NCBI GenBank assembly: GCA_024408295.1
Contig: JAKSVE010000006.1
Location: 1 to 42,757 of the forward strand
Source: Bacilli bacterium
GTDB lineage: Bacteria > Bacillota_I > Bacilli_A > RFN20 > CAG-826
DNA length: 42,757 nucleotides
Direction of reading: 5' to 3'
Under the pieces are notes generated by a model that saw only the letters and a program-made list of their open reading frames with translations, had not been told where the DNA came from and made no database searches. The position numbers were made by a program, and so were the translations under genes. Every line of letters starts with the position of its first letter. Position 1 is the first letter of the stretch. This document shows, piece after piece, positions 18,629-41,151 of this stretch.

Positions 18629-18655
18629 TAAAGAAAAGCACCCCTGAGGATGCTT
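18629..18655 (-). terminator. Terminator of the three-lipoprotein operon
   Basis: On the minus strand, AGCATCC pairs with GGGTGCT, followed by TTTTCTTT. It resembles the tRNA-Leu(CAG) terminator at 7912. Confidence 0.85.
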
Positions 18656-18669
18656 GACTGTTTAGTTTA

Positions 18670-19527
18670 CTATGCGCCCATTGCCTCACGGCCATAGATA
18701 TAGATTTCTAAGCCGTAGTTGGTCTGTCCGAATTGGATGACGTGATCAATGTCTTCTGCTAAGCCTGGAGGGAATGCGTAATAACCATATTCTGAGTAAT
18801 CATACTCATCGGCATCATCCATCAAATCACCATATGGAACAACCGTGTAGAAGTTATCTTCAAGAAGCTTCGTGTATTCTTCTTCAGCGTCCCAGGCAAC
18901 GTTCTTGATGATGATATCGATATATCCCTCACTGTTGATGTGCGAGTCGTATCTATATTTGCCGTTATCCTCAAGGTGTGGAAGGTCGTGGCCAAGTAGG
19001 TCGACGACTAAATTTGTTGGCCATGCATCCTCTGGAGCATAGGTGTAGTTGTAGGCAAATATGCCTAAGCACTCCTTGCCCTTGTGATTTCCTTCAAGGA
19101 ATTGCATTTCAATTCCCTTTATTGGAGTGATCACCTTATCGGCAAAGTAGACATCATAGTAGTAGCGGGTGAATCCATCTGTATCCCAACCCATTTGCGT
19201 GTCGTAGGTTACCTCGTATCCTGCGATTGAACACAAATCTGCATATGTAACGAGAGCATCCTGGATTTCGTCTTCGGGAATGTAACAGAAAATCTCTACG
19301 AGCGGATCGCCGAAATCGTCCTCTTCGACAATGACGTCAAACTTATCGCATGGAAGACGAGGCAAATCCTCTCCGAGGTTTCCGATGATATCGCTTGTAT
19401 ATTCTTCGCCCCAAGCAGAAGGGCCAACTGGTTTCTTGCTAGTGCTTGAACCTTTATTAGCAGAACCGCATGCTGACATCGCAATTGCTGCGATGCCAAG
19501 CAAGGTATTTCTAACGGTGTTTCTCAT
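18670..19527 (-). CDS. Lipoprotein with two copies of a WP...LG..P module
   Basis: The 285-residue protein has a lipobox MSAC (Cys20) and a short serine-rich linker. Two modules follow: residues ~39-165, where Trp-Gly replaces Trp-Pro, and ~169-280, beginning WPTNLVVDLLGHDLPHL. Each has an LG..LP motif near its start and an aromatic, acidic second half. The module is shared with the lipoprotein at 22734. I do not recognise a named domain. The gene starts two bases after the stop of the upstream gene and has no close ribosome binding site, so translation is probably coupled. It should be an extracellular, membrane-anchored protein. Confidence 0.82.
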   Translation of the reverse strand: MRNTVRNTLLGIAAIAMSACGSANKGSSTSKKPVGPSAWGEEYTSDIIGNLGEDLPRLPCDKFDVIVEEDDFGDPLVEIFCYIPEDEIQDALVTYADLCSIAGYEVTYDTQMGWDTDGFTRYYYDVYFADKVITPIKGIEMQFLEGNHKGKECLGIFAYNYTYAPEDAWPTNLVVDLLGHDLPHLEDNGKYRYDSHINSEGYIDIIIKNVAWDAEEEYTKLLEDNFYTVVPYGDLMDDADEYDYSEYGYYAFPPGLAEDIDHVIQFGQTNYGLEIYIYGREAMGA

Positions 19528-19529
19528 AA

Positions 19530-22500
19530 TTATTTAGAGACGGTCTCTCCTCCGAAGAATGAGAAGTTCTCATAGTCGTTGATGATGAATTCGTCATCGT
19601 TTATTTCGATTCCCTTTTCGCTATTTCTAAGATCAAGTTCGATTGTAACGCTTGGATCATCGTCATATTCGAAGACGTACACGTGATCACCGTGTAATCC
19701 TTTATAAGAGAAACTGTATGAGACATCATCGTTTGAGAGTGTTGCCTTTCCTGCTGCTGTTACAGTGAATGAGAATGGCGCGCCATTTCCGTCTTCGCCG
19801 CTCCATGCTCCGACAACTTCAGCTGGAAGCGAACCTTCTGCAGCTGCTTTGACTGTGATTCTAACTGTTTTTGAGACGTTTCCGTCCTTACCTTTGACTG
19901 TTGCGGTAACTTCAACGACACCAGCAACAGTTCCAACGCTCAATTCGCCTGTCTTTGTGTTGATTGTGGCCTTGGTTGTTGTACCTGAGTTGACGTTGTT
20001 ATTAACTGTCCATGTGATGGTCTTGTCTGATGTGATTGATGAATCGAAAGAAGTGGTAAATGTGACTTTGCCGGTTGTTTCGACTTCAGTTGCAGAAGGA
20101 GTGATGCTCCAGTTTGTGTCATTTGGATAAACGTTGTCCTTGACGACAAACTTGATCTCTTTCTTGACGGATGGGTCTTTCTTTGAGGCGACTGTGATTG
20201 TGACCTCACCTGCCTTCAAGAATTTGACGGTTCCGTACGCTCCAACGGAGATGCCTTCCTCCTCATCGTAATCAGCATCCTGTCCAACAACCGTTGCAAC
20301 AGTCTTGTCCGATGATGAGTAAGTGACTGCGGTAACATTTGCGTTATCTGGATATGCTTTTAAGAGCGATAGGTATGTTGTTGAACCTGCCATAACTTCA
20401 TACTTGCCATCTGCGTTAGGTGTCAATGAGCCAACCTTGACTGTGAAGGATGTCATATAGACTTGAAGCTCAGCGTCGAATGAAGACTTGAGAGGTGACT
20501 TGATTGTGCCGTTATCAAGATACTTGATGTCGCAGACAAAGATTGTTGAGTGTGAGAATTCAAGAGCAAAGCTTTCGCCTGTTTCAGCGTTTGCTAAGAG
20601 GATTCTATCGTTCTTTGCGCCTGTGATTGTTCCGGTTACCTTATGGCCAAAATATTCAATTTCCGCAGTGGTTTCGCTGAGAATTGTAGCGGAAACATAC
20701 TCTCCTTTATATTCGTTGCCAACGTATGATGCGAGAGTTGGCTTGTTTGCGACTGTGATTGTGACTGTGTTTGATTTCACGCCGTTTGAGGCTTCAGCAT
20801 AGACGTTTGCTGTACCTGCAGCTAAGCCTGTGACGACTCCATCAGCGCTGATAGAAACGATTTCTTCTCCGCCTTCCTCGATATGCCATGTGAGTGATTT
20901 ATCTGTTGCGTTATTTGGCGCAACGAGGGTGTGGAGAACCTGTGTTTCGCCAACATAGATTTCTGCTGATGAAGGAGCAGCGGTAACACCTGTGACTGGG
21001 ACTGCGATTGTTGGGTCTTTCCAGTTGTTGCATGTCTCGTCTTTTGAGAAACACATTGAGTCGAATGTGATGCCACACTGTCTTCCAATCATTGAAGCCT
21101 TCATGACGATTTCGACCTTGCTTGCTGCTGCAAACTCGACTTCAATCAACTTGCTGAACTCCCCAGATGCCTTTTGCTTGATTTCTGCAGTGATATCGTG
21201 CTCTTCGTATGTCTCTCCATCGTTTGATGTACGGACAACGATCTTTGAGATGTTATCAATATTGCCCTTATGTGATTCATAGAAGAATCCATAGTTGAAC
21301 GATAATTTTGATACTTGCTGTTCACCGAAGTCAAAGTAGAGTCCTGGGTTGACATCTTTGTTCAAGACTTCCTGATCGGATGGGTTAATGACCATGTAGA
21401 GCTTTCCAGAGTCATACTGGTCTGAGTTCTTGCCGTCCAAGATTTGAGCGCCAGGTCCTGCGGTAATGGTGAATGGTGCATTGGTGTTGATGTTGTTGGC
21501 TGCCAAGACTTCCTTTGTCTTTGCGTCGATTGCGACGAATTCAAAGTCGTAGACCGCATTGCTCTTGTCCTGGGTTGGAGGGGTGTTGACCTTGACTTTG
21601 ATATGTTCTGATTCGAGTGTCTTGTTCTCGCCCTTAACAGTCGCATAGATTTCAGTTTCGCCTGGAGCGATTGTGTGGACTGTCATGGCTTTGTCGCCCT
21701 GAGCATAATCAAGGGAGACGATTTTGCTGTCGTAGTGCCATGTGATGTCAGCATTTTCCTGCTTAACCAAATCCCAAGCTTCGAACTGCGTAGGGGTTAA
21801 GACCGCTTCAACGATGAACTTCTCGTCGATATCGCATGCGACATCGTGATTTGCATCGCCTGAAACACTCTGTCCTGCTTTAACTCTAGCGTGGATATCT
21901 GTGTAGTATGCTTCCTGGTAGTCGTGTGGCCATCCTTTGTACTGCCAATATGTTGTTTTTGTATCGTCTCCGAATTCTGGGATTCTTGATTCATATGGAA
22001 CCGCTGTTTCTCCGAAGTCATCTAAAATGATTTCGACATAGTTCTTTGGATCTGCCTCGTTGACGTCATCGCAGTAGCCAAAGATGTGCGAGATGTATCC
22101 GTCTTCGTTAACGAGAATTGCGATATCGATAATGTCATTGAACCATGCATAGTTGAATGCTGTGTAATTCAATTCCTTGATTTTCTCGTTTGACTTGACG
22201 AAATAGACGCCCTGAGTCATTGCAACGTCTGCTGCGGTTAGGTTGTTCAAGAATGCTGGGAGATAGAAGTATGCATTCCAAATTGAAAGGTCGGAATTTT
22301 TATAGCCTTTCTGGAGCCATCCACCCTTCGATTTTGGATTGCCCTTTTCGTTGTCCCAGAATGTCCATGACTCGCCTTTTTCATCGATATGATAGTAGGA
22401 GAGACAACTCTGGTAGTCGTATCCGCTTTGAGCGAGGTCCCAGCTGTAGTCACAGATGAGATCGCCATCGTAATATTCATAGTCGGTTTCGGTGTTAGCG

Positions 22501-22709
22501 CCGTCATCGTAGCTCTGATAGCTCAAGACGGTGACGTTTGAATAATCCTTCTGAAGAGCCTTATCAAAAGCGGCAGTTGGCTTAACGATTGAGCCTCCCT
22601 GGCTTGATTCATCTCCTGGATTAACGCTTGATGTGTCAACCGGTTTGGTTCTGCATCCTGTCAATACCATGGCAGCCGCAGAAATTAATAATATCTTTTT
22701 GGTTTTCAT
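19530..22709 (-). CDS. Large multidomain lipoprotein with bacterial Ig-like (BIG2) domains
   Basis: The 1059-residue protein has lipobox LTGC (Cys19). Residues ~48-245 form an aromatic, acidic domain I cannot name. An Ig-like domain lies at ~285-374 and a beta-sandwich at ~385-560. A clear BIG2 domain follows at ~570-653 (VPVTGVTAAPSSAEIYVGET). A small beta-barrel-like region (~660-750) and two more Ig-like domains (~765-856, ~865-955) come next. The C-terminal domain (~962-1055) resembles the ~660-750 region (both begin near a G.(W/Y).G motif). It is anchored outside the cell as an elongated adhesin-like or scaffold protein (inference). AAAGGA is the ribosome binding site. It is the middle gene of a three-lipoprotein operon. 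Confidence 0.85.
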   Translation of the reverse strand: MKTKKILLISAAAMVLTGCRTKPVDTSSVNPGDESSQGGSIVKPTAAFDKALQKDYSNVTVLSYQSYDDGANTETDYEYYDGDLICDYSWDLAQSGYDYQSCLSYYHIDEKGESWTFWDNEKGNPKSKGGWLQKGYKNSDLSIWNAYFYLPAFLNNLTAADVAMTQGVYFVKSNEKIKELNYTAFNYAWFNDIIDIAILVNEDGYISHIFGYCDDVNEADPKNYVEIILDDFGETAVPYESRIPEFGDDTKTTYWQYKGWPHDYQEAYYTDIHARVKAGQSVSGDANHDVACDIDEKFIVEAVLTPTQFEAWDLVKQENADITWHYDSKIVSLDYAQGDKAMTVHTIAPGETEIYATVKGENKTLESEHIKVKVNTPPTQDKSNAVYDFEFVAIDAKTKEVLAANNINTNAPFTITAGPGAQILDGKNSDQYDSGKLYMVINPSDQEVLNKDVNPGLYFDFGEQQVSKLSFNYGFFYESHKGNIDNISKIVVRTSNDGETYEEHDITAEIKQKASGEFSKLIEVEFAAASKVEIVMKASMIGRQCGITFDSMCFSKDETCNNWKDPTIAVPVTGVTAAPSSAEIYVGETQVLHTLVAPNNATDKSLTWHIEEGGEEIVSISADGVVTGLAAGTANVYAEASNGVKSNTVTITVANKPTLASYVGNEYKGEYVSATILSETTAEIEYFGHKVTGTITGAKNDRILLANAETGESFALEFSHSTIFVCDIKYLDNGTIKSPLKSSFDAELQVYMTSFTVKVGSLTPNADGKYEVMAGSTTYLSLLKAYPDNANVTAVTYSSSDKTVATVVGQDADYDEEEGISVGAYGTVKFLKAGEVTITVASKKDPSVKKEIKFVVKDNVYPNDTNWSITPSATEVETTGKVTFTTSFDSSITSDKTITWTVNNNVNSGTTTKATINTKTGELSVGTVAGVVEVTATVKGKDGNVSKTVRITVKAAAEGSLPAEVVGAWSGEDGNGAPFSFTVTAAGKATLSNDDVSYSFSYKGLHGDHVYVFEYDDDPSVTIELDLRNSEKGIEINDDEFIINDYENFSFFGGETVSK

Positions 22710-22733
22710 TTGTTTTTCCTTTCCGCCTACCGA

Positions 22734-23858
22734 TTAATAGTAGATTGCAATCGCGATTGTCTGTTGTTCTAAGCAGTACATTAAGCTGAGTAAATGCTCA
22801 TCTTTTCCGTATGAGTAATCGCGGGTTGTGATAGTTAACGATCCTGTTGATTTTCTTTCTTCGACGAACTTGTATCCTTCTCGCTCGAGAACCGCTCCAT
22901 ATGCGGTCATGTCATCGAGTGTGACACCGTCATAGTAGAGGGTCAGTATTTCATCGTCTCCGATGAATCCGAACTCGAAGTTGGATGCGTCATTGCTGAG
23001 CTTTGGCAAATCCTTGCCCAAGAGTTCTGTGATATATAAGTATGGCCATGCGTTTGTGACGTTTGCGGTGAGCACACCCATATAATACTCATACATGATT
23101 GTGACGTATCCGGATGGGCTTATTGCTTCGTTGAAGTAACTGCCAACCTTGATTGAATATCCTGCCATCTTAAGTGATGACTCGTATTCAGTAACGTCCT
23201 TTTCGGTCATGTGGTAGGCATAGATGCTCACTCGCATTTCATTCTTTGCGGTGATACTTGGATAGATTTCGTAGCAATCTGCCTTTATTTCTGGAATCTT
23301 TTCGCCAAGAATCTCTCTGATTGTTTCCTCTGGCCAATAGTCGATTCTGTATTCGTATCTATAGATCATCAACTCGAATGCTGTTTCGCCATCAGCATCT
23401 TGCTTAAGCTCGTATTGAACAATCAAATCATCAGTTAATGAGTACTCGATGAATCCGTATGGCAATTCGCCTGATAACTGATATCCAGCATTGACTAGAG
23501 ACTTCTCATATGTGGCCTCAACAGTCCTTTCGAATATTCCGTAACATCGGATGATAACTAAGTCTAGCGAGTTTCCGTTGTCGTCAGTTTCCTTTGTAAT
23601 TCCGAAATAGTACTCGTCTGCATCAACGGTCGGTACCATTGACGCTTTTTCTTTCTCTGTGATTTTCCCAATTACAGATAGAACATCGTCGTCCCAAGCT
23701 TCTGAATGATAAGTCTCATCGTATTCAACATTAAGTTGAGACTTAGTGGATGAGCTTGGCTGGCTATTGTTATTACCGTTATTTCCGCATGAGATTGCGC
23801 ATCCTAACGTTAAGAGTGATGCGGCAAGTGCCAGTATAGTTTTTTTCTTACTTCTCAT
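22734..23858 (-). CDS. Lipoprotein with three copies of a WP...LG..P module
   Basis: The 374-residue protein has a lipoprotein signal; the modified cysteine is Cys20 (LTLGC) or possibly Cys24. Three modules follow at ~55-170 (divergent), ~175-270 (WPEETIREILGEKIPEI) and ~271-374 (WPYLYITELLGKDLPKL). Each continues with a segment ending in GY about 55 residues after the motif (NAGYQL, MAGYSI, REGYKF). It is the first gene of the operon, with an AAAGGAGG ribosome binding site, 24 bases ahead of the Ig-like lipoprotein. Function is unknown; export and membrane anchoring are clear. Confidence 0.84.
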   Translation of the reverse strand: MRSKKKTILALAASLLTLGCAISCGNNGNNNSQPSSSTKSQLNVEYDETYHSEAWDDDVLSVIGKITEKEKASMVPTVDADEYYFGITKETDDNGNSLDLVIIRCYGIFERTVEATYEKSLVNAGYQLSGELPYGFIEYSLTDDLIVQYELKQDADGETAFELMIYRYEYRIDYWPEETIREILGEKIPEIKADCYEIYPSITAKNEMRVSIYAYHMTEKDVTEYESSLKMAGYSIKVGSYFNEAISPSGYVTIMYEYYMGVLTANVTNAWPYLYITELLGKDLPKLSNDASNFEFGFIGDDEILTLYYDGVTLDDMTAYGAVLEREGYKFVEERKSTGSLTITTRDYSYGKDEHLLSLMYCLEQQTIAIAIYY

Positions 23859-24173
23859 TGAGAAAACCTCCTTTCCTTCTCAAATGAACCCACTTAATAT
23901 AGACATATGTTTATGAAATTCAATGATTATATTCAGATTTTACTATTTTATTTATAAAGGGGTAAGAAATATGGGGTTTTTGCAGGGATTTTCTAAGATA
24001 TTTTGGTAGGATAAATCACGTTTTGATTGATACAAAAACGAGTTATTTGATGTAATAATAAAAGCGCTTTACTTGTGTATAAAATTATACACGCTTTAAA
24101 ACGTGGTGAATTGGTGTAAGATAATATTCAAGGTCCAAAAGAAATTAATCTTTTGAGACATTGAGGTGGAGTT
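23859..24173. promoter_or_regulatory. Divergent lipoprotein-operon / cdaA intergenic region
   Basis: This 315-base AT-rich gap has no gene. It contains the palindrome AAAGCGCTTT (24061-24070), which matches the core of CcpA cre sites. Next to it is the inverted repeat GTGTATAA-AA-TTATACAC (24075-24092). GATAAT at 24120-24125 is a possible -10 for cdaA. Both repeats lie just upstream of that -10, where a repressor would act. Confidence 0.45.
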
Positions 24174-24998
24174 ATGATTACGATTTTTAACACAGGATAC
24201 CTAGCTAACGGAATTATTGACTTAGTTTTGTCGCTTGTTTTGTTCTCGCTTTTGGATTTGCCATTTATTCTTATGGTGAAGAAAAAAGGTCTTTTTGCTG
24301 GTCTTGTTTCTGTTCAGGTCGTTTCAATCTTATCACTCATTCTCTGCCTTGACGTTATCACTTACATCTCAATTGCAGTGGTCATCATGCTTGCTGCTCT
24401 TGGCATATTCGCTAATTTCAACCAGTTCAAATTTTTCTTCTCTGGCTCAGCCAAAGGAAAGAGCATTAAGGATTTATTCAACAAGAAGCCAACCGAGCGC
24501 GCTGTCACTATTTATGACAAGAGTGGTGTCATTGATGAGATCGACGAGGCTGTTAGATTCTTATCAAGCAGAGGCACCGGCGCTCTTATTACCATCATCA
24601 GAAAAGATGACATCCTCAATGTTGAGACCAATGAACCAATCATCAAGCAGAAGGGCGTAGCTCTCGACGCTGTTGTTAATGCAGAACTCTTGGAAACAAT
24701 CTTCTATTTAGGCACCAGACTCCACGACGGTGCGGTTGTCATTAGAGACAACAAGATCATTGCGGGTTCAGTATTCTATGAATCAACGAAGAGACCGTTA
24801 ACAGGAAAGTATGGTGCTCGTCATCAGGCTGCAATGGGTATTTCTGAAAACTCAGATGCAGTTACCATTATCGTTTCTGAAGAAAACTCGAAGATTTCAA
24901 TTTGCCATGATTTGATGATGGACGTTGTTCCGCCAGATCAGTTCAAGGCTCAGTTAGACTTGGTTTTAAGCCAGGATTCAGTTGCGAAGATCCACTAA
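24174..24998 (+). CDS. cdaA: Diadenylate cyclase, CdaA type
   Basis: Makes cyclic di-AMP from two ATP at the membrane. The 274-residue protein has three N-terminal membrane helices (residues ~11-35, ~39-59, ~62-82), then the DAC domain (~105-250). The DGA motif is at 185-187 (LHDGAVVI). The usual RHR motif is RHQ (216-218, GARHQAAMGIS), so the second arginine is replaced by glutamine. The start has GAGGTGG at good spacing. In Bacillota the gene normally precedes cdaR and glmM; here it is followed by two unrelated genes. Product identity is secure; full activity with the RHQ variant is not proven. Confidence 0.92.
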   Translation: MITIFNTGYLANGIIDLVLSLVLFSLLDLPFILMVKKKGLFAGLVSVQVVSILSLILCLDVITYISIAVVIMLAALGIFANFNQFKFFFSGSAKGKSIKDLFNKKPTERAVTIYDKSGVIDEIDEAVRFLSSRGTGALITIIRKDDILNVETNEPIIKQKGVALDAVVNAELLETIFYLGTRLHDGAVVIRDNKIIAGSVFYESTKRPLTGKYGARHQAAMGISENSDAVTIIVSEENSKISICHDLMMDVVPPDQFKAQLDLVLSQDSVAKIH

Positions 24999-25004
24999 TA
25001 AGAC

Positions 25005-25631
25005 ATGGACTATTCAGTAAAACTAACCATATACATTTTAAGCGCAATCATTGTTTTCGGATTGTTGGTTTTTTGGATTGTTTACTCGCCTATTAAGCAC
25101 TACCTTTGGAGTACAAAATCCAAAGACATGTTCTACAAGAAGGTCTACAACGTAGCCAGAAATTTAGACTTATATCTCGTCAATGGGTTAGATATCAAAG
25201 TTGGGGATGAAATCCACGCTCATATCGACCACTTGATTGGCGGAGACAAATATTTATATTTGATTACAACTTACTATTACGACGGATGCCTTGAGGCTAG
25301 AGGTGATGATAGAAGCTGGATCTACTACGCAAAGAACGGCACTAAATCAAACGTTTCGAATCTTATTTTTGCCAACCAGAAAACCGTTAATGCTTTCTCT
25401 ATAAGAACCGGTTTTCCATCCAATATGATAAAAGGAATCGTCGTTGTTAATGACGACTGCTTCGTAAACAGAAACGACTCTCAAGTCGGTGAGAATGCTT
25501 TGTCTACAATCTCAAGTCTGGAGAATATAGTGGCTCAGTATGAACAAAGCGATGTCGGCTCATTTAACGCCGAGCAATTAAAACAGGTAATCAGAGATCT
25601 TCATGATTCAAATGAGGTGAATAATGGATAG
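25005..25631 (+). CDS. Single-pass membrane protein, possible degenerate NERD-like domain
   Basis: The 208-residue protein has one N-terminal membrane helix (residues ~5-29) and a soluble domain. The segment DEIHAHIDHLIGGDKYLYLITTYYYDGCLEARGDDRSWIYY (split here as DEIHAHIDHLIGGDKY and the following stretch ending in WIYY) is reminiscent of NERD domains, which have a conserved D-H...W pattern, but the catalytic E-x-K is absent. This assignment is weak. It begins six bases after the cdaA stop with no ribosome binding site, and overlaps the next gene by 8 bases, so it is part of the cdaA operon. A role in c-di-AMP control is only a contextual guess. Confidence 0.7.
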   Translation: MDYSVKLTIYILSAIIVFGLLVFWIVYSPIKHYLWSTKSKDMFYKKVYNVARNLDLYLVNGLDIKVGDEIHAHIDHLIGGDKYLYLITTYYYDGCLEARGDDRSWIYYAKNGTKSNVSNLIFANQKTVNAFSIRTGFPSNMIKGIVVVNDDCFVNRNDSQVGENALSTISSLENIVAQYEQSDVGSFNAEQLKQVIRDLHDSNEVNNG

Positions 25632-26682
25632 AGAATTATCGCCAAAACAGAAGTATAAGAAGTATTTCGTCGGTGTTTTACCGATGATTTTAGTTTTTAT
25701 TTTGGCTTCTGTCATTGCGTTTTCCATAGGTTTGTTCTCGATTGACATGCTATTCTTGACCGTTCCGTTCATACTAATCCCTGTTCTATTTGCCTTGCAG
25801 GTCAATATGGCAGATGTAGAAGGCGGATCCCAATTCTCCAACAAAGGTCTATGGTCATCATTCAGACGTTATTTCGTCGGTCCTTTCAATGGCTGCTATA
25901 ACGTCATCAACTCTTTCTTCAAAGCATTCCTCTTCTCCCTTCTCGGATCAGTGATATATGCAATCGTATTTGTCTCCATTGCCCAATACGTTTCGCCAAC
26001 ATTAGGCACCACGATTGAAGCGGTTGTTTCGATGATTGAGTCTGGAGTCGGATTCGATGATGTGACAGCATCATTATCATCCTCCCCGACATTCGTGTAT
26101 ATGTTGCTTTCGGTTCAGATAGTCGAAGGACTTATCTTCACCGTCTTGTTCATCCACTATATCTTAGGCTCGGCTCCAATGGCCCTTATCCAAGGCATTA
26201 TGGGAGCAGGAGATAGAAGAGGCGTCAGGATGATCTATCAGGCCACAAGAAAGTCAAATAGAGGCCTTTACAATAAGAATTACAGCAAGTTTGCATGGCC
26301 GTTGTATCCGTTGGTTATCGTCGGATTCTTCATGGGATTAGCCATCTCCCTTCTCGTTTTAGTGAGAGCAGAATTTGTCTATCTAGACGATCCTGTTACC
26401 GTTTTTAATGGCCTTATGTTTGCAATCCCAATGGGCGTTCTAGGATCAGTTCTTCTCTTAGCCTTCTACCTCCCATATTTCTTTTACTCGGTCGAGGCGT
26501 TTGCATTTGAGCTAATCCCTGTAATAAGAGATACATCTGTCAGAATCGCAAAACAAAACTTAGAAGAGCTCAAGCGTATGCGTGAAATTAATGATGAACA
26601 AGCACGTGCGTATGAAGAAGACATAAAGCGCGCTCAAGAAATCGACATCGAATCAAGCGAAGACGATAGTGAGGATAAGTAG
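25624..26682 (+). CDS. Multi-pass membrane protein of the cdaA operon
   Basis: The 352-residue protein has about six to seven predicted membrane helices (residues ~14-37, ~40-58, ~95-122, ~155-185, ~222-246, ~258-285). It ends in a long acidic coiled-coil-like tail (~300-352, ending EDDSEDK). GAGGTGA within the preceding gene is the ribosome binding site, and the 8-base overlap implies coupling. I do not recognise the family; it resembles DUF-type membrane proteins without catalytic motifs. Co-transcription with cdaA suggests a link to c-di-AMP or turgor control (inference). Confidence 0.78.
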   Translation: MDRELSPKQKYKKYFVGVLPMILVFILASVIAFSIGLFSIDMLFLTVPFILIPVLFALQVNMADVEGGSQFSNKGLWSSFRRYFVGPFNGCYNVINSFFKAFLFSLLGSVIYAIVFVSIAQYVSPTLGTTIEAVVSMIESGVGFDDVTASLSSSPTFVYMLLSVQIVEGLIFTVLFIHYILGSAPMALIQGIMGAGDRRGVRMIYQATRKSNRGLYNKNYSKFAWPLYPLVIVGFFMGLAISLLVLVRAEFVYLDDPVTVFNGLMFAIPMGVLGSVLLLAFYLPYFFYSVEAFAFELIPVIRDTSVRIAKQNLEELKRMREINDEQARAYEEDIKRAQEIDIESSEDDSEDK

Positions 26683-33234: not shown

Positions 33235-34713
33235 ATGAGCGAAAGATTCAATGAGTTCAAAAAGAAAATGACGATTGAAGTGCTTGTGAAAGCTCTTTTG
33301 ATTGGCCTTTCAGTGGGATTTTTAGCATCAGGTGGTGCAATTTTGACACTGAAGCTTATCGGAATAGCTTTGCATCCACTTTACATTGCGTTGATTGTTG
33401 CAGGAGGACTTGCCCTTGGTGCTGGCGTGTTTAGCGCCATCTTCTTCCCATTAAAACCAAGCGATCTCAAAGTTGCAAAACGACTTGATGAAGAACTTGG
33501 TCTAAACGAGAAGATGCAAACCATGGTTATCTTCAAAGATTCCGATGCACCAGTCATGCAATTACAGCGAGAAGATGCGGTCAGCGTTCTCTCCACCAAA
33601 CCAACTAAGAGCGTGAAATTCAGATTCAGCTTGGTTGTCCTTGCGGCATTCATCGTAACAGGCGCTGTGTTCACAACATCACATGTCGTTCCAGTTATCG
33701 ATCACACTGTGCAACACCAAACACCAACTGATCCACCATACATCTTAGACAGTTGGACTGAGCAGGCCATCATGGACCTTATCAAGTACATCAATAGTTC
33801 AGAAGCACAGCCACCTGCAAAGGAACAGTTGGTCGGAAACCTCGAGGCCTTATTGAAAAACCTCAAGGTTGATGGAGTAACGATCCCACAGATGCAGGAG
33901 TATGTTGAGAATACAATCTACATGAACACCTCATCAATCAACAGGGTCAACGTTGGTGATGACATCGCTCTTGCTCTCTCAACAGCAGACGAAAAGGCAA
34001 TCTTACACATCTCATCAGCAATGCTCAAAGCTGATAAGAACGGTCTTGAGAAAGCTATCCTCGAATTAAAAGATATCCTCGACTCAGACGGATTCATGGT
34101 CATGGCACCAAGAATTCACAAGCAGATGGGTCAGGCAATGGAAGCTGCTGGTATTGATAAAACTGAGACAGATATCGCAAGACAGCTTTATAGACTCTCA
34201 AACTTAATTGATTTCACAGCCAAGAACGAAAGCAGATATGCAACATTCATGGCATCAATCGAGCCAGTCTTAAACGAAGCTTCAAGACGAGTACCTGAAG
34301 CAATTATTGAAGAAAAAGTTAACATCGCAGTTAAGGACTATGTAAACGACAGATTGGTTAAGATCTTCCAGATCAACCCACCTGAGCAGCAAGGTCCACA
34401 GTCCGGCGGACACAACAACGAAACCGGAAACAACGATGTCGGCGACCACACAGGTGGTATGGGTACCGGCGAACTTATCATGGGTAGTGACGACGTCATT
34501 CTCGACTACGAGGAAGGCTACGTTCAATACAAGGATGTTATCTCTAAGTATTTAGCAGACTTACTCGCTCTATACGAAGACGGTACACTTCCGGAAGAAT
34601 ACAAGGATTTAATTGATTACTATTACGGTTTATTGTACGGATCAATCAAAGCCGATGAAGAAGGCGAAGAGACAGGTACACCAGGCAGTGATGGTGATGG
34701 AACAGGAGTATAA
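33235..34713 (+). CDS. DUF4175-like membrane protein, first gene of the MoxR/VWA operon
   Basis: The 492-residue protein has three membrane helices near its N-terminus (residues ~15-38, ~43-71, ~129-149), with a conserved intervening segment (RLDEELGLNEKMQTMVIF). A long helical, probably extracytoplasmic region follows (~160-390). The tail is rich in Gly, Asn and acidic residues. The segment resembles the 'LD..LGL.DRL.TA' motif of DUF4175 proteins found in MoxR-DUF58-VWA loci. AGGAGG is the ribosome binding site. It leads a six-gene operon and probably forms part of the membrane complex. Confidence 0.75.
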   Translation: MSERFNEFKKKMTIEVLVKALLIGLSVGFLASGGAILTLKLIGIALHPLYIALIVAGGLALGAGVFSAIFFPLKPSDLKVAKRLDEELGLNEKMQTMVIFKDSDAPVMQLQREDAVSVLSTKPTKSVKFRFSLVVLAAFIVTGAVFTTSHVVPVIDHTVQHQTPTDPPYILDSWTEQAIMDLIKYINSSEAQPPAKEQLVGNLEALLKNLKVDGVTIPQMQEYVENTIYMNTSSINRVNVGDDIALALSTADEKAILHISSAMLKADKNGLEKAILELKDILDSDGFMVMAPRIHKQMGQAMEAAGIDKTETDIARQLYRLSNLIDFTAKNESRYATFMASIEPVLNEASRRVPEAIIEEKVNIAVKDYVNDRLVKIFQINPPEQQGPQSGGHNNETGNNDVGDHTGGMGTGELIMGSDDVILDYEEGYVQYKDVISKYLADLLALYEDGTLPEEYKDLIDYYYGLLYGSIKADEEGEETGTPGSDGDGTGV

Positions 34714-34717
34714 AACA

Positions 34718-35704
34718 ATGGAAAACATCGAAAAAGTCAAATTATTCAGTGAATCAGTCTCAAAGATTAAAGAGCAGATTCACAAAGACGTCGTCGGTCA
34801 GGAAGATATCATCGACAGCGTTATCATCGCAATCGTATCAGGCGGTAACGTCCTTCTCGAAGGTGTCCCTGGAATTGGTAAGACCAGATTGGTCAGATCG
34901 TTATCAAAGGTCTTATCATTACCATTCTCACGTATTCAGTTCACACCTGACTTAATGCCTTCAGACGTTACAGGTACAAACGTCATCGAAAAAGACGAGA
35001 ATGGCAACATGAAACAGAAGTTCGAAAAGGGACCTATCTTCGCTAACTTAGTCCTCGCCGACGAAATCAACCGTGCTACCCCAAAGACCCAGGCAGCTAT
35101 GCTTGAAGTCATGCAGGAGCACAAGGTCACAGTCGCTCACGAAACATATAAGATTGAAGAACCATTCTTCGTCATGGCAACTCAGAACCCAATCGAGCAG
35201 GATGGTACATATCCACTTCCAGAAGCTCAGATGGACCGTTTCATGTTCAAGCTTCTCATGAAGTTCCCTAAGCTCGAGGAACTTTCAGAAATCGTCAACA
35301 TGACACAGATCACCATGGACGAAACAGCAGAATCAGTCGTCGACGGACCAACAATCCTCGAAATGAGAGAGCTCGCTAAGGGAGTTCCATGCATCGACGA
35401 CGTCACAGACTACGCAATGAAGCTTGTCGCTGCAACACATCCAGAACTCGAAGGAGCAGGAGAAGTCGCAACAAAGTACATCAAGTACGGTGCTTCACCT
35501 CGTGCTTGCCAGGCTCTCATCACAGCAGCTAAGGTCCGTGCTTTAGTCTACGGAAACTACAACGTCTCAATCGCTGATATCGACGCACTCGCATATCCAG
35601 TTTTAAGACACAGAATCAAAGTCGGATTCAACGCAATCTCAGAACACTTATCAGTCGATGATGTCATCGGTCTCTTAATCAAGGAAGTCAAGAAGGCTAA
35701 GTAA
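34718..35704 (+). CDS. MoxR-family AAA+ ATPase
   Basis: The 328-residue chaperone-like ATPase has Walker A GVPGIGKT (49-56), Walker B LVLADEIN (112-118), the sensor 1 segment ATQNPIEQDG (154-163) and the C-terminal helical lid. MoxR ATPases remodel or load metal into VWA-domain partners, which lie directly downstream here. The start at 34718 has AGGAG with good spacing; the frame is open upstream but overlaps the first gene. It is highly biased in codon use, with GTC, CTC and ATC strongly preferred. Confidence 0.95.
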   Translation: MENIEKVKLFSESVSKIKEQIHKDVVGQEDIIDSVIIAIVSGGNVLLEGVPGIGKTRLVRSLSKVLSLPFSRIQFTPDLMPSDVTGTNVIEKDENGNMKQKFEKGPIFANLVLADEINRATPKTQAAMLEVMQEHKVTVAHETYKIEEPFFVMATQNPIEQDGTYPLPEAQMDRFMFKLLMKFPKLEELSEIVNMTQITMDETAESVVDGPTILEMRELAKGVPCIDDVTDYAMKLVAATHPELEGAGEVATKYIKYGASPRACQALITAAKVRALVYGNYNVSIADIDALAYPVLRHRIKVGFNAISEHLSVDDVIGLLIKEVKKAK

Positions 35705-35715
35705 GGTAAACGACT

Positions 35716-36603
35716 ATGGGAACTTATGCAATAAATGAAGAATTTTTGCAGCAAGTAGAGACCCTTCAGTTACTTTTAAAGAACAACGTCGCTGGAATGT
35801 TTGGTGGAACTCACCAAGCAAAGACATTCGGTTCAAGCTGCGACTTCGCAGACTACCGTGACTATAAAGCCGGTGACGATATCACAAAGATCGACTGGAA
35901 CGCATATGCGCGTTTCGAAAAACTCTATGTGAAGCTCTATCTCGACGAGAGACAGGTTCACACAAGAATCTACATCGATGCCAGTCGCTCAATAGACTAC
36001 GGAAGGGGAAGCAAAGCTTTAAAAGCTCTACAGTTAGCTGCCACTTTCGCTTACATCTCGATTTGTAACATGGATAAAGTATCCATCTACTACATCCAGA
36101 ATAAAGCGGTACACACTCTTATCTCCAACATGGTTGGAAAAGAGTCGTTCTACAACCAGATCATCAAGTTGAATGACATTGTCTTCGACGGTGATAGCTA
36201 CATCTCCGAAAGTCTTTTACCAACAACCGTCGGCTATGGAGACGGACACTCCGTCATCATCTCCGACTTCTTAACGGACAATGACTATGACGCCGCAATC
36301 GATTTCCTCGTCTCAAAGAAGAGGGACGTCGTCTGCGCACAGGTGCTCTCAGCCGATGAGATTGACCCACTCCAAAGAGGTAAGGTTCATCTCTTCGATT
36401 CTGAGAACAACGAAAGACAATATAAAAAGAATATTAATAAGGACGTAATGGCCGCGTATCGCGCAGCCGTGAAGTACATGACGAGTCGCTTGCAGAATTT
36501 CTGCTCAGCTAGAGGCGCAAACTATCTCTTAGTTCCAGCCGATAAGACAATGCAGCAGATCTTCTTCCAGGACTTCCCTGAAATGGAGGTAATTAAACAA
36601 TGA
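35716..36603 (+). CDS. DUF58 protein with MIDAS-like motif
   Basis: The 295-residue soluble protein has the DUF58 signature DYRDYKAGDDITKIDWNAYAR (46-66). A DxSxS metal-ion-dependent adhesion motif lies in YIDASRSI (Asp88, Ser90, Ser92), so the domain is VWA-like. TAAGGT is a weak ribosome binding site. The final ATGA overlaps the next start codon, so translation is coupled. It uses TGA as stop, forced by that overlap. It probably binds MoxR and the membrane VWA proteins. Confidence 0.93.
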   Translation: MGTYAINEEFLQQVETLQLLLKNNVAGMFGGTHQAKTFGSSCDFADYRDYKAGDDITKIDWNAYARFEKLYVKLYLDERQVHTRIYIDASRSIDYGRGSKALKALQLAATFAYISICNMDKVSIYYIQNKAVHTLISNMVGKESFYNQIIKLNDIVFDGDSYISESLLPTTVGYGDGHSVIISDFLTDNDYDAAIDFLVSKKRDVVCAQVLSADEIDPLQRGKVHLFDSENNERQYKKNINKDVMAAYRAAVKYMTSRLQNFCSARGANYLLVPADKTMQQIFFQDFPEMEVIKQ

Positions 36604-38492
36604 GTTTCTTATTTCCATTAGGTTTACTCGGATTAATTGGTATTCCAGTAATAATCATCATCTACATCATCAAGAATAGATATACAGAACAGACGGTCTC
36701 ATCAACCTATATCTGGACATTATCTGAACGTTTCTTGAAGAACAAGAGACCAATCTCAAAGCTCAAAGGCTTGATTTCCTTGCTTTTGCAGCTTGCAGCG
36801 GTCTTCTTCATCTCAATCGCGGTTGCTCACCCTGTCTTTAAGGTCAAAAACGCCGCAAAAGAGTACTGTTTCGTTCTCGATTGCACAGCTTCAATGGCTA
36901 TCGACACCGGAAACGGAACTAGATTCGAAGTCGGAAAACAGCAAATCGCTGATATGATCAACGGAGCTGCTGATGGTTCAACATTCACCCTCATCCAAAT
37001 CGGAGTCACGACAAGAACCATCTACGAGCGTTTCCCTAACAAGGAAAAGGCAATCGAAATTCTTGAAGGCGTCGAGCAGAGCGATATCACATCAAACACC
37101 CTCTCAGCATGGGCACTTGCAAAAGACTACTTCGACCAGAACTCTTCAACCGAAGTCTATCTCGTCACCGACACTGCATACGAGACTGAAAACGTCACCC
37201 TTGTCAATGTCGCAACAGAAGTGGACAACTTCGCAATCACAACTGCCAACTATGCAACAATTGGCGAAAAGCTCAGATTCCAGGGCAAGGCTATTTCCTA
37301 TCAGAACGACGCTGAATTGGAGTTTAATCTCTACCTTGATGATGTCGAAATCACAGACTACGAATTGCAGGTCGAGACATTAGGAATCTTAGTCACCAAA
37401 GATAACTTAGCTCTTACAGCAGGAGTGGAGAAAGACTTCTTCCTCGAACTCCCACAGAAAGACTTCGTCACAGCAAAAATCGAAATCAAAAATCAGGATT
37501 CCCTTGATAAAGATAACGTTTATATGCTCTACAACGTCTCTCAGGAGCACAACTATTCAGCAATCGTCATCTCTGAGACACCATTCTTCATCAAGTCGGT
37601 CATCGCTACCGTCTCAGATGCCAGCGTATACTGCATCAAGCCAGAAGAATACGATGAATCAGTCCACGGACACGGATATGACCTATACGTTTTCGATGGA
37701 TATTCACCATCCACACTTCCACGTGATGGTTCAATCTGGTTCTTCGATATCAGAGAAAACATCCCTAACTCAGGATTCACAATCCAGGATGAAATTGAAC
37801 TTGGAGAAGCTTCACAGATCACATATCGTATCTCGAACTCATCTGAATATAGAAAGTTCACCCAGGGCACAGTCGGAAGCAACATCTTTATCGGTAGATA
37901 CGTCAAGTACGGCATCTATGCGAACGGATTCACAACCATTCTCACCTACGAGGGCGACCCAGTCGTCTTCACAGGCCTCAACGGTTATGGAAATAGACAA
38001 GTTACCTTCGCATTCAACCTTCATGACTCAGACATGCCAATGCAGGCTGACTGGCTCATCTTGGCCAAGAACTTCATCTCATATTCATTCCCTGAAGTTA
38101 TTGAGACATCAAACTATGTTTGCGGTGACGAATTGAACATCAACGTTCTCTCAAGCTGCAAATCAATCAAAGTCGAAGCTCCAAGCGGAGAAGTCACATA
38201 TTTGGACACAAACGAAGCATTCGCCTCAACACCATTGACCGAAGTTGGCGAGTACAAGATCTCTGTCCTCTTAGGCGACCAAATGAAAGAATTCAGGGTA
38301 TTCTCATCCTTGCCTCCACAGGAAGGACAAGTTATCCCTAATGTCTACGAATCGTTCTTACTTGAAGGCGAAAAGACCGAGAATTACATCGATGGCAAAT
38401 TTGATAAGCTATGGATCATCATTGCCATTATCGGAGTCATATTCGTCGCAGATTGGATAATTTACTGTTATGAGCAATATCAACTTCAATAA
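36600..38492 (+). CDS. BatA-like membrane VWA protein
   Basis: The 630-residue protein has an N-terminal membrane helix (~5-24), a second one (~60-80), then a VWA domain with MIDAS Asp94, Thr96 and Ser98 (DCTAS). A long beta-rich extracytoplasmic region follows (~230-590) and a C-terminal membrane helix (~605-625). The BatA/BatB topology places VWA and tail outside the membrane. The GGAGG ribosome binding site lies within DUF58. The last 23 bases overlap the next gene. Confidence 0.88.
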   Translation: MSFLFPLGLLGLIGIPVIIIIYIIKNRYTEQTVSSTYIWTLSERFLKNKRPISKLKGLISLLLQLAAVFFISIAVAHPVFKVKNAAKEYCFVLDCTASMAIDTGNGTRFEVGKQQIADMINGAADGSTFTLIQIGVTTRTIYERFPNKEKAIEILEGVEQSDITSNTLSAWALAKDYFDQNSSTEVYLVTDTAYETENVTLVNVATEVDNFAITTANYATIGEKLRFQGKAISYQNDAELEFNLYLDDVEITDYELQVETLGILVTKDNLALTAGVEKDFFLELPQKDFVTAKIEIKNQDSLDKDNVYMLYNVSQEHNYSAIVISETPFFIKSVIATVSDASVYCIKPEEYDESVHGHGYDLYVFDGYSPSTLPRDGSIWFFDIRENIPNSGFTIQDEIELGEASQITYRISNSSEYRKFTQGTVGSNIFIGRYVKYGIYANGFTTILTYEGDPVVFTGLNGYGNRQVTFAFNLHDSDMPMQADWLILAKNFISYSFPEVIETSNYVCGDELNINVLSSCKSIKVEAPSGEVTYLDTNEAFASTPLTEVGEYKISVLLGDQMKEFRVFSSLPPQEGQVIPNVYESFLLEGEKTENYIDGKFDKLWIIIAIIGVIFVADWIIYCYEQYQLQ

Positions 38493-41151
38493 TCCTTGGC
38501 TGCTTCTAGTTCTCGTTCCTTTCCTAGCAGCGGTCATCACACCATTCTTCATAGCAATCAAGAAAAGAAACATGAACGGTTATGCGATTACCTCGCTTAT
38601 CGCTCACATCCTCATCGTTACACTCGCATCATCAGTCGTTGCGGGCACAACATACCAAAGAGTCATCACCGAGACCAATGTCTATGTCCTCGCTGACGTA
38701 TCATATTCAGGTGATCAGAACTTAGATAGAGTCGACCAATACATCGTCGATCTCTCAGAGAACCTCCCAAAGAACTCGCTCATGGGAATCGTTGCATTCG
38801 CAAAAGATTCCGAGTTGTTAGTTGAGCTCGGCGGAGAAATCAAGTCCGTCAAGGAGAATAATCTCGACAATACCGAGACCAACATCGTTGACGCACTCCA
38901 GTACACAGCATCACTCTTCAAAGAAGACGTCATCAAGAGAATCGTCATCATCTCCGACGGTAAGGAAACCAACTACAGTTCCATCGTCTCAGTTGTTGCA
39001 GAACTCGCAGAAGACAACGTCTACGTCGACGCTATCTTCCTTGATAACAACCTCACAGAAGAAGACAAAGAAGTCCAGCTTCACGCAGTTGAGTACAACC
39101 GCTCTGTCTTCCAGGGCAAGAAGGAAAAACTCGAAGTCATGGTCCAGTCATCATACGACGTAAACGGATACTGCACACTTTATAAGGACGAGACCCTCGT
39201 ATATAAGAAGCCAGTCTCATACGTCGATGGCTTAAATATCATCGATTTCGACCTCGACACAGAAGAAGCGGGCGACTTCGATTACAGAGTTGTTGCAGAA
39301 GTGGAACACGATTACTGCTTATTCAACAACGAAATCAAGTTCACACAGTCAGTCTCTGATGAAGTCAAGACACTCTTCCTATCAAGTGACTATGACCTCC
39401 AGGACACCGCAGTCAAACTCTACGGACAGGGCAAGGCAACAGTCGATTTCTTCTTTGCCAACAAAAACGGCATCGCTCAGCTCATGGGCAACGACGATGT
39501 CAAACTCCCTATCACAGTTGAAGAACTCTGCGCCTATGACCAGTACATCTTCGCCGATATCGACTTCACAAAAGTCTTCTCATCAGGCCAGTTCCTCGAA
39601 TCAATCGACACCTGCGTCTCTGAGTTCGGCAAGACCCTCATCTCCATGGGTAATACATATATCCAGACAGATAAGGACGGCACTGACGAAACTCTTAATG
39701 CTTACCAGGCTATGCTTCCAGTCAAGTATGGCGCTAGCGCAACAGACAAGAAACTCGTCACCCTCATCATCGATATCTCCAAGTCCATGGTTAACTACTC
39801 CCGTGTCTTAATCGGTAGAGCAGCAGCATGCCAGATCTTGGACCTCTTAAACGACAACGACATCGTCAACGTCATCAACTTCGCTGGCGATACCCAGATC
39901 CTTCAGGCTCCAGTTCAGGTCGGACCAAACAAAGAAGAGATCAAGAAGAAGATCCAGACTGCAAAAGCTCAGCAGGGCACCTTCTTATCAACCGCTCTTC
40001 AGGATACCTTGAAGATGATTAAGGACCTTCCATATGAAAATAAGGAATGCTTCTTGTTATCAGACGGTCTTCCATATACCGGCGGAACAGTCACTGAAGA
40101 ATCAATCCAGAACGTCGCTAAGGAATATGCAGCAGAAGGCATCGTCCTTTCAACCATCAACACCGCATGTCCTGACGGCGAAAGCCTCTTAAACACTCTT
40201 GCAATCTATGGCAACGGTTCATACTTCAGAATCGACGAAGAAAAACAAGTCGAGAAAGTTATTCTCAACCAGGTCTCAACAGAACTTAGAGATTCAGAAG
40301 AAGAAGGCAAGTCCTACACCGTCTCATCTCTTAAGAACAGCTCTGAAATCTACGCAGACGTCGATATTGAGAACTTAGAGAAACTAAGAGGATTCTACTT
40401 AGGAAAGAAGAAGTCCAACGCAACAAACCTTGCAGTCGTCTCCTATAGCAAATTCGGCGATGAGAGAATGACAGACTCACCTCTCTTCACCTATTGGAAC
40501 TACGGAAACGGCATGGCCTATTCCCTCTCAACCACATTCTCAGATAAGAAGACGTGGTGCATGAACTGGAAAGAAGACAATTCTGAGGGCATGAAGTTCC
40601 TCAAGAACCTGATTCCAGCAACAATTCCACAGCTTAAGCAATCAACCCCATATATCTTCGGATACGAGACAGAAGGAACAAAGACCACAGTCAGCGTCCA
40701 CGCTCCATCAGTCCAGGTTGGTTCAACAATCACCCTTGAGGTCACAACACCAAAGGGCAACCAAGTCACAAGAACCCTCATCTTCGACCTCGAGAACTAC
40801 ATCACATCACTCGACACATCAGAAGTCGGTAAGTACCAGATCCACCTCAAGTACAATAAGGGTAACCTCGAGTACAGCGCAGATTCCGAATTCTTCATCT
40901 ACTACCCACCAGAGTACAACAGATTCGAAGTCTACGAAGCTTCAACCCTCTACTACATGGTCTCAAGTGGTGGAACGGTATCAGAGGATGGCAAGCTCGA
41001 AATCGATAATGGAGATCTTGATGTCGCAACATACATCTATGACTTCACACCATCATTCTTAACCGCAGCAGTCGTCTTGTTCGTCATCGACGTCTTCGCT
41101 CGTAAGATCAAGTGGGCAGACATCAAAGCCCTCTTCAAAAAGAAAGCCTAA
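38470..41151 (+). CDS. Membrane protein with two VWA domains flanking a GATase-like region
   Basis: The 893-residue protein has two N-terminal membrane helices (~9-29, ~38-58). VWA domain 1 follows (~70-200) with MIDAS Asp76, Ser78 and Ser80 (DVSYS) and an SDG at ~162-164. An Ig-like segment lies at ~210-295. A class I glutamine-amidotransferase-like region (~297-400) lacks an obvious catalytic Cys-His-Glu set. VWA domain 2 (~428-610) has MIDAS Asp435, Ser437 and Ser439 (DISKS) and SDG. A C-terminal beta domain and a membrane helix (~855-875) complete it. Both MIDAS sites look intact, so the protein could hold two metal-dependent partners at once. It overlaps the previous gene by 23 bases. 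Confidence 0.88.
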   Translation: MSNINFNNPWLLLVLVPFLAAVITPFFIAIKKRNMNGYAITSLIAHILIVTLASSVVAGTTYQRVITETNVYVLADVSYSGDQNLDRVDQYIVDLSENLPKNSLMGIVAFAKDSELLVELGGEIKSVKENNLDNTETNIVDALQYTASLFKEDVIKRIVIISDGKETNYSSIVSVVAELAEDNVYVDAIFLDNNLTEEDKEVQLHAVEYNRSVFQGKKEKLEVMVQSSYDVNGYCTLYKDETLVYKKPVSYVDGLNIIDFDLDTEEAGDFDYRVVAEVEHDYCLFNNEIKFTQSVSDEVKTLFLSSDYDLQDTAVKLYGQGKATVDFFFANKNGIAQLMGNDDVKLPITVEELCAYDQYIFADIDFTKVFSSGQFLESIDTCVSEFGKTLISMGNTYIQTDKDGTDETLNAYQAMLPVKYGASATDKKLVTLIIDISKSMVNYSRVLIGRAAACQILDLLNDNDIVNVINFAGDTQILQAPVQVGPNKEEIKKKIQTAKAQQGTFLSTALQDTLKMIKDLPYENKECFLLSDGLPYTGGTVTEESIQNVAKEYAAEGIVLSTINTACPDGESLLNTLAIYGNGSYFRIDEEKQVEKVILNQVSTELRDSEEEGKSYTVSSLKNSSEIYADVDIENLEKLRGFYLGKKKSNATNLAVVSYSKFGDERMTDSPLFTYWNYGNGMAYSLSTTFSDKKTWCMNWKEDNSEGMKFLKNLIPATIPQLKQSTPYIFGYETEGTKTTVSVHAPSVQVGSTITLEVTTPKGNQVTRTLIFDLENYITSLDTSEVGKYQIHLKYNKGNLEYSADSEFFIYYPPEYNRFEVYEASTLYYMVSSGGTVSEDGKLEIDNGDLDVATYIYDFTPSFLTAAVVLFVIDVFARKIKWADIKALFKKKA

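Follow-up and report, generated by a model that had tools for sequence, protein, structure and literature searches.

A DUF6591-like repeated module in a three-gene predicted lipoprotein operon of gut Bacilli

The described systems closest to the locus reported here are the Pfam family DUF6591 (PF20234), the Big_2 surface proteins and the F5/8 type C carbohydrate-binding domains. DUF6591 is a known family with no assigned function, and our literature search found no paper naming either DUF6591 or PF20234; no solved structure of the family was found here. Elsewhere, DUF6591 proteins are either lipoproteins or zinc-ribbon proteins with a membrane anchor, and an N-terminal unit of about 97 positions occurs in them in tandem. 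This unit starts with W-P, continues with an (L/I)(L/I)P pair and carries a conserved Tyr in its second helix and a Gly-aromatic pair at the helix end, all of which are traits that recur in the module described below.

The window (the whole stretch of DNA analysed, 42,757 nucleotides) comes from an uncultured gut Bacilli bacterium and contains three genes, here called A, B and C, which lie head to tail on the minus strand and encode predicted cell-surface lipoproteins. The genes and the signals around them are as follows.

23896..23923, minus strand: promoter-like TTGAAT-16-TATATT 5' of A (9/12 match), in a region where the number of promoter-like sites, this one included, was not above chance
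23867..23873, minus strand: ribosome-binding site AAGGAGG of gene A, in the upstream sequence, 8 bases 5' of the ATG
22734..23858, minus strand: gene A, 374 aa, predicted lipoprotein with three DUF6591-like modules
19530..22709, minus strand: gene B, 1059 aa, predicted lipoprotein with a conserved core (residues 40-560) and a variable, Ig-rich C-terminal half
18670..19527, minus strand: gene C, 285 aa, predicted lipoprotein with two DUF6591-like modules
18636..18655, minus strand: terminator-like hairpin, 14 bases past the C stop

The three-lipoprotein operon proposed in the initial annotation was recovered in full, with all open reading frames in place and gaps of 24 bases between A and B and 2 bases between B and C. 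Since a ribbon of signals frames the set, with a ribosome-binding site before A and a hairpin after C, A-B-C is likely a single transcription unit. Each protein begins with a signal peptide followed by a lipobox-like Cys, recognised by sequence pattern rather than by a dedicated predictor; this Cys is present in every member of the B and C families and in at least 90% of the A family, and lipidation and a surface location are predicted for all three proteins. The gene divergent from A encodes a diadenylate cyclase (DAC); genes for a NERD-domain protein and for an unnamed membrane protein come next (window 24174-26682), and the same trio also flanks A in one relative (G011).

A and C together contain five copies of one module.

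23337..23696, minus strand: module A1, A residues 55-174, HMM domain E 3e-7
23049..23336, minus strand: module A2, A residues 175-270, HMM domain E 6e-20
22737..23048, minus strand: module A3, A residues 271-374, HMM domain E 3e-18
19024..19413, minus strand: module C1, C residues 39-168, HMM domain E 4e-7
18673..19023, minus strand: module C2, C residues 169-285, HMM domain E 3e-19

BLASTP aligned C with A at an E value of 8.5e-6, A2 with A3 at 8e-7 and A3 with C2 at 1.7e-4, while A1 and C1 were both recovered by a profile seeded without them, reaching the E values listed above after one refinement round. On these sequence comparisons the modules of A and C are homologous, with three copies in A and two in C, in agreement with the five copies counted originally. 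The description of the copies needed to be relaxed. Their lengths of 120, 96, 104, 130 and 117 residues (A1, A2, A3, C1 and C2) fit the proposed 95-125 residues for every copy except C1, giving a range of 96-130. Likewise, the proposed WP...GY motif proved slightly too strict: WP occurs only in A2, A3 and C2, being replaced by WD in A1 and WG in C1, and GY stands 57-70 residues past the W in four copies, C2 having FY at that place. Strict conservation was confined to two positions, the P in the LP/IP pair and a Tyr of the second helix. Conservation within the module is highest at W, P, P, Y and L, residues that look structural rather than catalytic, which argues against the module being an enzyme. 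The b1-b2 loop of C1 carries the conserved Asp residues D70 and D74.

When the window proteins and the relatives of A and C were scanned against Pfam and NCBIfam, only signal-peptide or chance matches came back, a DUF1949 match on C (E 0.12) being taken as one of the latter. A, C and their relatives showed no PF20234 match even at E values up to 1, and none of 61 relatives exceeded the curated Pfam cut-off of 27.1 bits; in two related multi-module proteins, weak direct PF20234 matches at the N-terminal unit scored only 15.3 and 11 bits. Where these direct searches were negative, profile-profile comparison gave a clear result. When an alignment of 44 modules was compared by hhalign with 13 N-terminal tandem units taken from proteins over the PF20234 cut-off, the two were collinear over 87 columns with a probability of 96.7% and an E value of 3.6e-10. 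As controls, 60 column shuffles of the DUF6591 alignment reached at most 7.7% (E 0.0045), the reversed alignment 0.2% and two domains of B at most 0.2%, and a smaller hand-picked module alignment (A3) still scored 95.5% against DUF6591. HMM searches agreed in both directions: the module profile found DUF6591 proteins with E values down to 4e-10, and the DUF6591 profile ranked A-type, C-type and other module proteins directly below its own members.

The profile-profile and HMM matches thus argue that the module is distantly related to the N-terminal tandem unit of DUF6591, and the initial view, in which it was not recognised as a known domain, does not hold in that form. Since the module never exceeds the Pfam cut-off, it is best described as a divergent relative and not as a DUF6591 member by the Pfam criterion; the relation places the module and does not explain it. 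The window modules also differ from DUF6591 in lacking its second region (positions 104-227), A and C both ending with a module, in lacking a zinc-ribbon/TM anchor, in having longer loops and in belonging to a three-lipoprotein operon.

AlphaFold2 predicted the single module A2 as a compact a-b-b-a-b-b-b-b domain (pLDDT 94, pTM 0.85) and returned a pLDDT of 86 for C. Foldseek searches of the PDB with C and with the single module gave no match at E < 1e-3, a viral library likewise gave no usable match, and neither A nor the module profile matched any PDB sequence. The best Foldseek matches (polyketide dehydratases, hot-dog thioesterases, MTC28 and GlyQ) superposed poorly and were not used.

The distribution of the set was evaluated from homologues of C, sought by sequence alone in a whole-genome collection; the many order-wide matches of the C profile that covered only the signal peptide were ignored, and a C-type match in genome G028 (L048), lying inside an alpha/beta-hydrolase-like protein, was rejected as chance. 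The order A-B-C is kept in 20 genomes from three families of the order, comprising 16 of the 224 genomes of the window's family (the window genome counted) and four genomes of two further families (G232, G242, G396 and G409), and contig ends cut two more sets. The gaps between the genes are mostly below 30 bases in these relatives. The operon therefore proved to be conserved in fixed order and tight spacing, and the genes are not scattered in relatives. The set is not obligatory, since three genomes carry A-B but no C and three others carry a C-like gene but neither A nor B; it is accessory, with a patchy occurrence in a minority of relatives. In the module tree, the grouping of the copies followed mainly their position (A1, A2, A3, C1, C2) rather than the species. 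The distance matrices for A, B and C correlated with r values of 0.87-0.93, where permutations reached at most 0.37, shared species history contributing to r. This grouping and the agreement of the matrices argue that the module duplications are old and that A, B and C have been inherited together. Some relatives have a fourth gene, for a Big_2 lipoprotein, ahead of A, and two of these (L030:9990-12368 and L039:5201-7648) contain an M6-peptidase-like region.

The long protein B was divided into the following domains.

21885..22592, minus strand: N-terminal domain, residues about 40-275, conserved, no database match
21030..21566, minus strand: middle domain, discoidin (F5/8 type C)-like candidate glycan-binding domain, residues about 382-560, profile match to PDB 7nit
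20751..21008, minus strand: Big_2 Ig-like domain, residues about 568-653, best stretch 571-650
19533..19838, minus strand: C-terminal domain, residues about 958-1059, weakly DUF5640-like

Big_2 (PF02368) matched B in two stretches with a whole-protein E value of 1.8e-14 and 53.9 bits against a cut-off of 22.8, and all 20 B relatives had Big_2 matches as well. B thus resembles the Big_2 surface proteins in carrying this domain over the cut-off, and its description as an Ig-domain lipoprotein holds for the second half; the half that is conserved best, residues 40-560, consists mainly of sequence other than Big_2. The profile of the middle domain matched residues 1101-1187 of the beta-galactosidase in PDB 7nit with an E value of 1e-5. 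F5_F8_type_C itself was found weakly in three B relatives (best E 6e-4), with no match listed for the window B. The middle domain is therefore termed a candidate glycan-binding, discoidin-like domain, on the basis of the relatives and the profile. Small lipoproteins carrying the C-terminal domain of B (E 1e-7 to 1e-9) were observed beside the operon in two relatives (L031:9546-10094, L032:9296-9832 and L032:10026-10541).

Starting from what can be read directly in the sequences, namely the module homology, the relation to DUF6591, the gene arrangement, the co-inheritance and the Big_2 domain of B, we propose that A, B and C form a co-inherited set of surface lipoproteins binding a ligand, possibly a glycan, with B as scaffold, a reading whose chances we put at about even. 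The three proteins would be lipid-anchored outside the membrane and would act together, B being a long scaffold in which the N-terminal domain is followed by the discoidin-like candidate carbohydrate-binding domain and then by Big_2 domains. B would hold the main ligand-contacting domain, and the module arrays of A and C may add binding surfaces or bind B. In this way the set might serve in the herbivore gut to capture a ligand or adhere to it, a glycan being plausible; Bacilli MAGs from rumen and horse faeces are among the nearest named gltX relatives. The single surface assembly suggested in the initial annotation is consistent with the co-inheritance, and physical association of the three proteins is presumed. 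A broader version is possible but doubtful: the module would be a large unnamed branch of a DUF6591 superfamily serving gut Bacilli as a general extracellular binding unit, present in one to seven copies in each protein. A-B-C would then be a surface complex of three lipoproteins not described before, in which each of the five modules would have evolved a separate, fixed role.

The strong conservation of B residues 40-275 could instead indicate envelope biogenesis, the N-terminal domain carrying or inserting a lipid or polymer through what we presume to be a LolA/LppX-like bathtub fold and the modules of A and C serving as accessory factors. Consistent with this, a homologous MoxR-DUF58-BatA/VWA cluster directly adjoins A-B-C in convergent orientation in five relatives (G163, G164, G232, G242 and G409, the last a partial read), with small lipoproteins in between, and the window contains a counterpart MoxR ATPase - DUF58 - BatA/VWA - VWA cluster at 33235-41151. 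The N-terminal domain, however, had neither a PDB match by profile nor a Pfam match, and DUF6612, the sole family tried, presumed LolA-like and represented by four sequences only, scored 1%, leaving the LolA/LppX-like assignment unsupported. Moreover, an accessory set present in a minority of relatives is unlike core envelope genes, and we consider this explanation unlikely.

It is also rather improbable that A, B and C are unrelated surface lipoproteins joined by transcription alone, with the modules acting as spacers or as a variable coat. Such a view would suit the high divergence of the proteins, their acidic composition (pI 4.0-4.5), their low-complexity N-terminal linkers and the patchy distribution, but the order A-B-C is fixed across families and the modules are conserved by position. 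Very unlikely, finally, is a role of A and C as sensors or inhibitors whose modules bind a peptide or protease in a propeptide-like manner and control a surface protease, as the M6-peptidase-like regions upstream of A in two relatives and the membrane anchoring or lipoprotein nature of DUF6591 proteins might suggest, given that the window operon is adjoined by no peptidase gene, its upstream neighbour being the divergent diadenylate cyclase gene, and that the other scanned upstream genes in relatives showed no peptidase match.

Returning to the proposed ligand-binding lipoprotein set, the analysis adds to an uncharacterised Pfam family a far larger group of tandem modules, carried by surface lipoproteins of gut Bacilli. 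It also offers a compact fold, predicted with high confidence and without a clear PDB match, and a conserved operon in which the function of the module could be tested. Should A-B-C prove to bind glycans, it would count as a further Gram-positive system for capture at the surface of herbivore-gut bacteria.

Further lipoproteins from the order and the class also carry the module, each with one to seven copies. On contig 14 of the window's own genome, a 538-aa lipoprotein located outside the operon (L219:4278-5894) has three to four modules. An 859-aa lipoprotein (L222:2733-5312) combines Big_2 and then seven modules in one chain, a fusion that counts in favour of the ligand-binding reading of A-B-C, and several of its modules are connected by His-rich linkers (EHHHDHHHW), which are possibly metal-binding.
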